A stretch of 51,133 nt of DNA, taken from Acidimicrobiia bacterium (GTDB lineage Bacteria > Actinomycetota > Acidimicrobiia > Spongiisociales > UBA5794). This document shows, piece by piece, positions 7,993 to 13,064 of this stretch. The notes below the pieces were generated by a model, which did not search any database, had not been told where the DNA came from, and saw only the letters and a program-made list of their open reading frames with translations. Location of the stretch: assembly GCA_030066265.1 (NCBI GenBank), contig JASJCF010000007.1, positions 1 through 51,133 of the forward strand, given 5' to 3'. Within the stretch, counting starts at the first letter, position 1. Each line of letters opens with the position of its first letter. Both the position numbers and the translations under genes were made by a program.

Positions 7993-8898
7993 TCAGCCGC
8001 CGGCCAGTGCCCGGGCGAAGAACGTCAGGTTCGCGGGGCGTTCGGCCAGCCGGCGTGAGAAGTACGGGTACCACGCGTCGCCGTACGGCACGTAGATGCG
8101 CATTGCGTGTCCTTGCGCCACGAGCGCACGCTGCCGGTCCCGACGGACCCCGTAGAGCATCTGGAACTCCCACGGAGCCGTGCGATCCGAGGCATGGTCG
8201 AGCACGGCGGCGATCCTCGCATCGTCGTGTGTGGCGATGGCCGGCGTCACACCGTCGGCGCTCATGAGCGTGGCCGCCAGCCGGTCGAAGGAGCGGTTCA
8301 CATCGTCGCTGGTCTGGTACGCGACATCCGCCGGCTCGGCATACGCACCCTTGCACAGCCGAATGTGGCCACCGAGCGCCATGAGCCGGTCGAGATCGGC
8401 GGTCGTCCTCGTCAGGTAGGTCTGGACGGCGATCCCGAGGTTGCCGTGAACCGCTTGTACCCGTTCGTACAGGTCGATGGTGGCCGTGGTGTAGGTCGAC
8501 TCCTCCATGTCCACCGTCACGGAGGTCCCTGCGGCCACGGCGGCCGACGCCAGCTGGTCGAGGTTCCCGGCCGCCACGTCGTCGTCCATACCCATCCCCA
8601 GCTGCGTGAGCTTCACCGAGATGTTGGCGTCGAGGCCTTCGTCTGCAATGGCCTCCAGGCACGCCAGGTAGGACTTCGTGGCGGTGGTCGCCTCATCGAT
8701 GTGTGTCACGTGCTCGCCGAGGTGGTCGAGCGACACCGACATCCCCTGCTCGTTGAGCTGACGAGCGGTGGACACCGCGTCGTCCAGGCCGTCGCCGGCG
8801 ATGAAGCGATCCGCAACCGCTCGGCCTGCAGCGGTCTCCGTGATGAGGCGTTTGGTGTAGCGATGACCGGCAACCGCAAGGAACGCGGACCGCATCAT
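7993..8898 (-). CDS. Proline dehydrogenase (monofunctional PRODH)
   Basis: 301 residues, the normal size of the stand-alone actinobacterial/Deinococcus-type FAD enzyme that oxidises L-proline to pyrroline-5-carboxylate. The TIM-barrel landmarks are visible: NISVKLTQLGM, DMEESTYT, RLCKGAY, a TATHD-like IATHDD, EFQMLYGVR and RIYVPYGDAWYPYFSRRLAER (proline carboxylate-binding RR). The start ATG at 8898 overlaps the proC stop (ATGA), so translation is coupled. The frame remains open far upstream through proC, but that part is non-coding. A second ATG at 8895 is possible. Confidence 0.88.
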   Translation of the reverse strand: MMRSAFLAVAGHRYTKRLITETAAGRAVADRFIAGDGLDDAVSTARQLNEQGMSVSLDHLGEHVTHIDEATTATKSYLACLEAIADEGLDANISVKLTQLGMGMDDDVAAGNLDQLASAAVAAGTSVTVDMEESTYTTATIDLYERVQAVHGNLGIAVQTYLTRTTADLDRLMALGGHIRLCKGAYAEPADVAYQTSDDVNRSFDRLAATLMSADGVTPAIATHDDARIAAVLDHASDRTAPWEFQMLYGVRRDRQRALVAQGHAMRIYVPYGDAWYPYFSRRLAERPANLTFFARALAGG

Positions 8899-9737
8899 TG
8901 CCCGGAGGCCCGTTCGCCGAGATCTCGTGACCGGTGGGCAGCCGCCTGGACCGCATCCTCGATGAGCGCTCGGAACCCGCCCTCCTCGAGCACGTGCATG
9001 GCCGCCGCAGTGGTCCCACCGGGCGAGGTGACCTCGCCACGCAGGCGGAACGCCGACTTGTCCGATGTCGCCAGCAGCTCCCCGGACCCTCGGAGGGTCT
9101 CGTGGACGAGCCGCTCGGCGGCGTGGTGGGGAAGGCCCTCGCGGATGGCCGCCTCGATGAGGGACTCGGCGAGCAGGAAGACGTAGGCCGGCCCGGTGCC
9201 CGACACGGCGGTGACGGCGTCGAGGAGATCTTCGGACAACTCGATGGTCTCGCCCACCGCCGACAGCACCTGTTTCGCGAGCTCTCGGTGGGTCTCGTCG
9301 ACCGAAGCGCCGACGGTGTACGCCGACATGCCGCGATCGACTGCGGACGGCGTGTTCGGCATCGCCCTCACCACGGGGACGCCCGGCATGGCCTCCTCGA
9401 AGAGGCTGATCGGCACACCCGCTGCGATCGAGAGCAGGGTCTGTTCCGGATCGACGAGGCTGCCGACCTCGTCGATCACAACAGGGACATCCTTCGGCTT
9501 CACCGAGACCACGAGGACATCCCGATCCGGGATCGCATCGGCGAGCTTCAGGGTGGTCTCGATCCCGGTTGCATGGTGGAGATCCCGGGCACGCTCCTCG
9601 CGTCGGACAGCCAGGATCAGGTCGGACTGGTGCCACCCGGCGCGGAGGAGACCGGCGGCGAAGATCTCGCCCATCGCCCCTGCTCCCAGGACGGCCACTC
9701 GAGGTCGTGCCGCAGATTCGCGTTCCATGGTCACCAT
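8895..9737 (-). CDS. proC: Pyrroline-5-carboxylate reductase
   Basis: 280 residues. It catalyses the last step of proline synthesis, P5C + NAD(P)H to proline. An N-terminal Rossmann motif (GAGAMGEIFAAGL) is followed by the ProC signatures VSVKPKDV, RAMPNTP and AVSGTGPAYVF, and by the C-terminal EVTSPGGTTAAA helix region. The ATG at 9737 has GGAGG about 10 nt upstream; an in-frame ATG at 9728 is the alternative. The gene ends inside the start codon of proline dehydrogenase, an odd pairing because the two enzymes run opposite reactions. Confidence 0.9.
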   Translation of the reverse strand: MVTMERESAARPRVAVLGAGAMGEIFAAGLLRAGWHQSDLILAVRREERARDLHHATGIETTLKLADAIPDRDVLVVSVKPKDVPVVIDEVGSLVDPEQTLLSIAAGVPISLFEEAMPGVPVVRAMPNTPSAVDRGMSAYTVGASVDETHRELAKQVLSAVGETIELSEDLLDAVTAVSGTGPAYVFLLAESLIEAAIREGLPHHAAERLVHETLRGSGELLATSDKSAFRLRGEVTSPGGTTAAAMHVLEEGGFRALIEDAVQAAAHRSRDLGERASGQ

Positions 9738-9793: not shown

Positions 9794-11134
9794 TCAGGGC
9801 TCCAGGACGAGCCGGTCGAGAGCGCCGGCGAAACGGAGCGTCATGGTTTCGTCGTACCCGACGAAGCGAACCGAATGCAGCGTCGTCTCGGTCTCCGAGA
9901 GGTGTTCGGCGATCGTCTCGACGATGACGCCGGTGGCTTCGTCGGGCGGGTATCCGTAGATGCCGGCCGAGACGGCGGGCACTGCCATCGTGGCGGCCGA
10001 GATCTCGTCTGCCATGTCGACGGCGGCGAGGGCGGCTGCTGCGAGGAGGCTCTCGTTGTCCGCATCGGATCTCCAGATCGGGCCTGCGACGTGGATGACG
10101 TAGGACGACGGCATCGCACCGGCTGACGTGAGGGCGGCCAATCCGGGCTCGAGCACGCCGTAGGTCTCGATCCAGGCTCGAGACTCCGTATCGATCGCGG
10201 GCCCGCCCGCTCGGGCGATCGCCAGGGCGACGCCACCTCCGTGCATCAGCTCCACGTTGGCTGCATTGACGATGGCGTCGACCGGCATGGCGGTGATGTC
10301 GCCGGTGACGGCCGAGAGCGTGGTGTCCGCGATGCGCACCGCCCTCGGGCATCCGTCGGGAATGTCGATTGGCTCCCACGCGATGCCGCTGATGGCGCTG
10401 TCACCGGCCGGGCGCAACGGAGGGGTGAAGCCGGTCGTCCACCACCACGTGGCACCGGAGCCCTTCAGGTCCACGCCGGCATCGTGCGCCACATCGACCG
10501 TCCGCTTGGCGACAGCCGGAGCAGGATCGATGACGACCACGCCGTCGGGGAGCCTCGCTTCGATGTCGATGCGAACGATCGGATAGTGCGTGCAGCCGAG
10601 CACCACGACGTCGGCACCGGCGGTGACCATCGGTTCGAGGTACCGATCGAGGAGATCACCGACGTCGTCACCTGCCTCGATGGCCGCTGCGAGGCCTGCG
10701 CATGCCTGGGTGACGATCTGGACATCCGATGCGTGACGCCCCACCAGGTCGTTGAACAATGTCCCCTGGAAGGTTGCAGCGGTCGCCATCACGCCGATGA
10801 CGCCGCTGCGTGTCAGGCTCGCGGCCGGCTTGACCGCCGGCTCCATCCCGACGAAGGGAGTCTCCGGCATCGCCTCTCTCAGGTGGTGAAGTGCTGCCGC
10901 CGAGGCTGAGTTGCAGGCGATCACGACCAGCTCGACGCCGGCCGTGTCGAGGTAGCGGGCGATCACCTCGGTTCGCTCCCTCACCTGATCGAGGCTCCGC
11001 TCTCCGTAGGGACCGAAGGCATGGTCGGCGACGTAGGCGATGTCGGCCCAGGGTGCCAACTGGCGGATGGCATCGAGCACGCCTGTGCCACCGATGCCCG
11101 AGTCGATCACGGCGATCCGCGGCGAGATGTCCAT
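9794..11134 (-). CDS. murI: Glutamate racemase-macrodomain fusion
   Basis: 446 residues with two domains in one frame. Residues 1-262 are a complete glutamate racemase, which supplies D-Glu for peptidoglycan: D11-S12 (VIDSGIGG), catalytic C74 (ACNSAS) and C181-T182-H183 (LGCTHYP). Residues about 267-446 are an Af1521-like macrodomain: GDITAMPVDAIVNAAN (278-293), GGGVALAIARAGG (299-311) and PAVSAGIYGYP (386-396), the ADP-ribose-binding loops. No stop, frameshift or linker repeat separates them. The frame starts 6 nt after TAGCAT (leaderless). Neighbours (proC, PRODH) do not explain the fusion. Both assignments are strong; the joint role is unknown. Confidence 0.9.
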   Translation of the reverse strand: MDISPRIAVIDSGIGGTGVLDAIRQLAPWADIAYVADHAFGPYGERSLDQVRERTEVIARYLDTAGVELVVIACNSASAAALHHLREAMPETPFVGMEPAVKPAASLTRSGVIGVMATAATFQGTLFNDLVGRHASDVQIVTQACAGLAAAIEAGDDVGDLLDRYLEPMVTAGADVVVLGCTHYPIVRIDIEARLPDGVVVIDPAPAVAKRTVDVAHDAGVDLKGSGATWWWTTGFTPPLRPAGDSAISGIAWEPIDIPDGCPRAVRIADTTLSAVTGDITAMPVDAIVNAANVELMHGGGVALAIARAGGPAIDTESRAWIETYGVLEPGLAALTSAGAMPSSYVIHVAGPIWRSDADNESLLAAAALAAVDMADEISAATMAVPAVSAGIYGYPPDEATGVIVETIAEHLSETETTLHSVRFVGYDETMTLRFAGALDRLVLEP

Positions 11135-12368: not shown

Positions 12369-13064
12369 TCAGACCAGGATGAATCCCTGGTGGTTCACCC
12401 ACCGCTCGACGAGATCCCACTCGTGCGTGAGGAAGACGATGGTGGCCCGCCACTGCGGCTCCTCGTCGTCATCGTCGTCGTCCTCGTCACGGCCTTCGTC
12501 CTCGTCGTCGTCGTCATCTTCGTGACGACCCTCGTCCCCGTCGTCCGCATCTTCGTCGTCGTCATCTTCGTGACGACCCTCGTCCTCGTCGTCCCCGTCG
12601 TCGTCGTCCTCGTGACGGACGCCGGAGTTCTCGAACTGACCGTCCTCGTCGCCGTCGTCGTCGTCGGCTCCGGGTTCCTCGACTTCAACGGCTTCCACCG
12701 GAGCGTCCGGTCCCGTCGGGATGTCGGGTCCCTCCGAATCGTGGAGCGGTGTGCACACCGTCATCTCGGAGGTGCCGGGTGCGATCTTCACGGATTGCAC
12801 ATTGGCGGTGGAGGACGGTTCACCCGTGACGTACTGGATCCACAGGTAGGAACCCACGACCGAGACGCCCACACCGGGGGTCACGGACAGCTCCTCGCCG
12901 ATCTGTGGCGTGATCCCGTGCCACACGATCGTCACGGTCGCACAACCGACCGACTCACTGCCTTCCGCGTCTCCTGCAAGCCCCGGGGCTGGTGACATCG
13001 CACCAAACAACATGGCAGAGAAGGTGACCCCAACCACCCACCTGCGAGCGTTTCTCAGCCTCAT
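12369..13064 (-). CDS. Secreted protein with Asp/Glu-rich repeat tract
   Basis: 231 residues, family not recognised. An N-terminal signal peptide (about 1-30) precedes a small beta-rich domain with two cysteines (C41, C104), about residues 38-108. Residues 133-202 are an acidic low-complexity tract with three RHEDDDD blocks (150-155, 164-169, 180-185) and a final RDEDDDDDD (192-200). A conserved-looking C-terminal segment with several Trp and His residues (204-231) closes the protein. Such tracts can bind divalent cations or keep a protein soluble in salt, which is inference. The ATG at 13064 matches the signal peptide; no clear RBS. Confidence 0.7.
   Translation of the reverse strand: MRLRNARRWVVGVTFSAMLFGAMSPAPGLAGDAEGSESVGCATVTIVWHGITPQIGEELSVTPGVGVSVVGSYLWIQYVTGEPSSTANVQSVKIAPGTSEMTVCTPLHDSEGPDIPTGPDAPVEAVEVEEPGADDDDGDEDGQFENSGVRHEDDDDGDDEDEGRHEDDDDEDADDGDEGRHEDDDDDEDEGRDEDDDDDDEEPQWRATIVFLTHEWDLVERWVNHQGFILV

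Follow-up and report, generated by a model that had tools for sequence, protein, structure and literature searches.

A glutamate racemase fused to an Af1521-like macrodomain recurs within one family of Acidimicrobiia

Bacterial macrodomains are widespread, yet few of their physiological substrates are known; what the activity of YmdB does in vivo, for example, 'remains elusive' (PMC7050489). Repeated fusion of such a domain to another protein offers a concrete and testable partner, and in the locus described here the partner is glutamate racemase (MurI), an essential and easily assayed enzyme. Is the joint gene genuine, how did it arise and what might be gained by joining the two activities? 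The locus lies in a stretch of 51,133 nucleotides (the window) of contig JASJCF010000007.1 from an Acidimicrobiia bacterium (assembly GCA_030066265.1). A preliminary description of this DNA had reported a complete MurI and an Af1521-type macrodomain, both with intact sites, in one reading frame. This was confirmed: the frame is single and uninterrupted, its two halves are recognised by TIGR00067 and Pfam Macro, respectively, and their catalytic and pocket residues are invariant among fused copies (Table 1).

Table 1. Features of the murI-macro locus, in window coordinates
Feature	Position	Strand	Basis or remark
murI-macro fused gene	9794..11134	-	446 aa, ATG start
MurI (glutamate racemase) domain, residues 1-235	10430..11134	-	TIGR00067; catalytic D11, C74, E153, C181, H183; predicted structure
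Variable tail/linker, residues 236-268	10331..10429	-	Low identity to orthologues
Af1521/PARP14-MD1-like macrodomain, residues 269-440	9815..10330	-	Pfam Macro; PARP14 MD1, YmdB, PARP9 and Af1521 matches
Macro D279 and NAAN motif (N290-N293)	10256..10300	-	Kept in 16/16 fused and 13/13 coupled copies
Macro loop 1, H298-GGG-V-A303	10226..10243	-	Alignment with solved relatives
Macro loop 2, S389-A-G-I-Y-G-Y-P396; hydrophobic and aromatic pair I392-Y393	9947..9970	-	Alignment; criteria of PMC10221186
proC (pyrroline-5-carboxylate reductase), next downstream	8895..9737	-	Pfam P5CR_dimer 3.9e-36; start approximate
Proline dehydrogenase	7993..8919	-	Pfam Pro_dh 2e-35; start approximate

The first half resembles MurI in sequence and in predicted structure. 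The fused protein scored 162.9 bits against the NCBIfam model TIGR00067 (glut_race), above its curated cut-off of 146.65, and Pfam Asp_Glu_race was found at residues 24-211 (1e-22). In a PDB sequence search the nearest solved relative of this half was E. coli MurI (2JFN, 9.5e-39), and with this protein, as with those of M. tuberculosis (5HJ7) and A. pyrophilus (1B73), it shares the fold, the catalytic Cys pair and the catalytic Asp, Glu and His. All fused copies covering these positions have D11, C74, E153, C181, T182 and H183. In the AlphaFold model, based on an alignment with 42 MurI relatives, most of residues 10-230 have a pLDDT of about 90-98, and the top Foldseek matches of the modelled half were all glutamate racemases (TMt about 0.8). 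As is typical of MurI, the fused gene is the sole match of the glutamate racemase kind in its genome. Four Mur ligase matches indicate that the peptidoglycan pathway is present, and the host therefore needs D-glutamate. These features point to a half that is probably an active glutamate racemase feeding peptidoglycan synthesis. The protein departs from a typical MurI in its added C-terminal macrodomain and in the usual C-terminal helix segment (TTGDPxxFxxQxxxLxG), which is unrecognisable in the group of fusions to which the window belongs (group A, below) and present in the two others (B and C).

In the second half, Pfam Macro matched residues 289-403 (1.5e-30), with 106 bits against a gathering cut-off of 22. 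Its closest solved relatives in the PDB search were PARP14 macrodomain 1 (MD1) and then YmdB, and PARP9 and Af1521 were also found. Every fused copy covering the positions concerned retains D279, N290-A-A-N293, H298, G300, G301, S389, G391, Y/F393 and G394, so that the elements of the ADP-ribose pocket (adenine-side Asp, NAAN, Gly-rich loop 1 and SxGxYG loop 2) are all present in the alignment. The domain has in common with Af1521 and with the MD1 of PARP14 and PARP9 the NAAN motif, the SAGIYGYP loop 2, a loop 1 devoid of the MacroD Asp and the adenine-side Asp; we take D279 to be the adenine-contact Asp of Af1521-like macrodomains. Those domains are PARP-joined or free-standing, whereas the present one is joined to a metabolic racemase. 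Loop 1 reads GGGVA, presumably resembling that of Af1521, where YmdB has GGGVD: position 303 is an Ala in each of the 16 fused and 13 coupled copies, in place of the catalytic Asp of YmdB/MacroD (GGGGVDGAIH). Although YmdB is the second-best solved relative, the score against the YmdB/MacroD O-acetyl-ADP-ribose deacetylase model NF001664 (151.5 bits) stays under the curated cut-off of 200.

Sequence criteria proposed for active ADP-ribosylhydrolases are an Asn/Ser and a Gly flanking loop 1, and a hydrophobic followed by an aromatic residue in loop 2 (PMC10221186). The window protein has N293, G300/G301 and I392-Y393 at these positions, which makes hydrolysis of ADP-ribosyl esters likely; the most likely substrates would be ADP-ribosyl-glutamate/aspartate and O-acetyl-ADP-ribose, and a sirtuin encoded elsewhere in the genome is a possible source of the latter. 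Since the MacroD-type catalytic Asp is replaced (A303), the domain could alternatively bind its ligand without hydrolysing it.

The same hydrolase signature raises the idea that the tethered macrodomain is an eraser acting on ADP-ribosylated MurI, or on other cell-wall or gyrase-linked proteins close to MurI. Glu-ADPr is cleaved by the MD1 of PARP14 and PARP9 (PMC10499325), two of the closest solved relatives of the domain, and gyrase is a binding partner of mycobacterial MurI (PMC10886550). Against this, we know of no cell-wall enzyme that is ADP-ribosylated here and recognised no transferase in the neighbourhood of the gene; we regard such a role as very improbable. A genetic tie between a bacterial macrodomain and a metabolic protein also exists in the Macro-SirTM-GcvH-L operons (PMC7050489). 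The window locus differs from these in being a physical fusion and in carrying a macrodomain that is not of the zinc type, and neither SirTM nor lipoyl genes were recognised among the genes neighbouring it.

We searched relatives for the same architecture, the preliminary description having allowed that a conserved stop between separate genes in all of them would suggest a sequencing error. Counting frames that span the junction, the fusion was found in 15 of 50 genomes of the family, in 6 genera (G025 and G061 end at contig edges and were not judged). Fourteen other species carry the fused frame, and its full-length copies in other species are 48-67% identical to the window protein. Recurrence in 14 other genomes rules out a sequencing or assembly error, and recurrence of the full-length frame in other species rules out chance joining.

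Outside the family, no fused match was detected when the order (138 genomes), the class (395) and the phylum (396) were sampled under strict E-value limits, which very divergent fusions could escape. Two other phyla, those of loci L091 and L127, yielded none either, in searches of 251 and 299 genomes, respectively, run without a positive control. In the other sampled families of the order the murI and macro genes lie apart, and no macro gene stood beside murI within the flanks (at most 5 kb per side) of 80 loci from other phyla. Plasmid sequences gave no match covering 80% of the query, viral contigs contained no relative and no description of a MurI-macro fusion was found in the literature searched. 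The fusion is thus confined to one bacterial family in the samples searched and new as far as the searched papers and genomes show, in line with the earlier remark that no common MurI-macro architecture is known.

How the frame was formed is suggested by relatives that keep two genes. In 11 of them murI and macro are separate neighbours, with five 4-nt overlaps (ATGA/GTGA) and six gaps of 0-4 nt. In G067 both genes lie in one frame, parted by a single TAG with an ATG directly after it, and its genus-mate G066 is fused. The starting state would then have been a translationally coupled pair, 0-4 nt apart or overlapping by 4 nt, and loss of the stop between the genes would have created the single frame, a route that the G067/G066 pair fits.

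The fused copies fall into three groups: A, that of the window (G000, G028, G021, G031, G013, G034, G008 and G072, the last cut 5' by the contig), B (G035, G010, G026, G062, G064 and G065, the last cut 3') and C (G066). These are placed apart in both the MurI and the macro trees. A joint clade of B and C was rejected by AU tests (p = 2.8e-5 for MurI, 0.007 for macro); grouping A with C was borderline (0.044 and 0.061) and grouping A with B was not rejected (0.24 and 0.12). One ancient fusion is therefore ruled out for B and C, and may still account for A and B. Because the common B and C clade is rejected, fusion occurred at least twice within the family, and probably three times.

Other members document MurI without the macrodomain. 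In G004, inside group A, the macrodomain is gone: the protein ends soon after the linker and a short stretch still aligns past the stop, best read as a loss by deletion. G001 has a lone MurI with a short tail like that of G004 (L041, 7863-8783) and proC directly behind it; it belongs to the genus of the window, yet the MurI tree places its copy as sister to the fused copies of group A as a whole, so that gene tree and genus label disagree. MurI can thus do without the macrodomain, as G004 and G001 have none behind it. The macro gene, in turn, is not tied to murI alone, since in G015 (L081, 39-1273) it overlaps metX, identified by sequence inspection, by 4 nt with no murI between. In the same genome an in-frame TAG interrupts the macro gene, which is either degraded or affected by a sequence error.

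Does the joined state matter to the cell? A neutral merger, in which stop loss joined overlapping genes whose halves stay independent and gain nothing beyond their earlier co-expression, would agree with pairs that are one mutation or a short indel away from fusion (as in G067/G066), with the two genomes whose MurI has no macro behind it and with the coupling of macro to metX in G015. It would agree also with the linker: residues 216-268 show 30-54% identity to close orthologues, compared with 61-70% for both domains, and the linker varies in length. The linker does keep an excess of differences at third codon positions, and is therefore translated. The domains behave otherwise. Differences at codon positions 1/2/3 amount to 0.23/0.18/0.62 in the MurI half and 0.25/0.19/0.58 in the macro half; both are under about equal purifying constraint, unlike the linker, and the match between them argues that the macro half has been retained under selection. 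This constraint, and the retention of two or three independent fusions, which span 6 genera and in the window's group have diverged to about 60% identity, speak against neutrality, which we hold to be unlikely though still worth keeping in mind. The preliminary description had named a merged gene pair as the dull alternative. This stands for the evolutionary route, given the coupled pairs of relatives; a single accident does not suffice, because merging was repeated independently and both halves are equally constrained.

At the other extreme, the macrodomain might sense ADP-ribose, O-acetyl-ADP-ribose or an NAD+-derived ligand and tune the racemase allosterically, so that D-glutamate supply would follow NAD+/sirtuin status. 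The invariant ADP-ribose pocket, the repeated fusion to the same partner and the sirtuin of the genome are compatible with such a sensor, and in E. coli a nucleotide-sugar precursor, UDP-MurNAc-L-Ala, activates MurI (PMC10886550). If true, cell-wall precursor supply would follow NAD+ metabolism, a link selected repeatedly in one family. However, the poor conservation of the linker argues against a finely tuned mechanism transmitted through it, 11 relatives manage with separate coupled genes and MurI is intact without a macro behind it in G001 and G004. Nor does the AlphaFold model offer a domain interface: its alignment holds no macro relatives, the macro half has a low pLDDT and no interface can be inferred without a confident model of that half. 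Allosteric control consequently appears improbable to us.

We favour, with reasonable though not high confidence, a bifunctional protein born from translationally coupled genes, in which a racemase and a ligand-competent macrodomain work at independent sites. The product would consist of the racemase, a variable linker and the Af1521-like macrodomain, with both active sites probably acting independently; fusion would fix the 1:1 production and the co-localisation of D-glutamate synthesis and ADP-ribosyl-ester hydrolysis. We infer the two activities, the independence of the sites and any benefit of tethering; co-production is most likely the assured gain.

In group A we rejected a free macro product from an internal start: no conserved start lies ahead of the domain, and the ATG at residue 283 falls past D279. 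Several members of group B retain an ATG where the macro gene used to start, which makes a free macro product possible there. Taken together, members of the family form a natural series that runs from overlapping genes, via one in-frame stop, to fusion and then again to loss.

The surroundings of murI vary within the family: metX lies upstream in one set of genera, and in another the downstream neighbours are proC and proline dehydrogenase. The latter two genes, behind the window gene, are kept in many relatives and may form a glutamate/proline cluster with murI. On the other side of the fused gene, positions 12369-13064 of the window (- strand) encode a protein that looks secreted and contains a long run of strongly acidic, Asp/Glu-rich repeats (EDDDDGDEDEG...).
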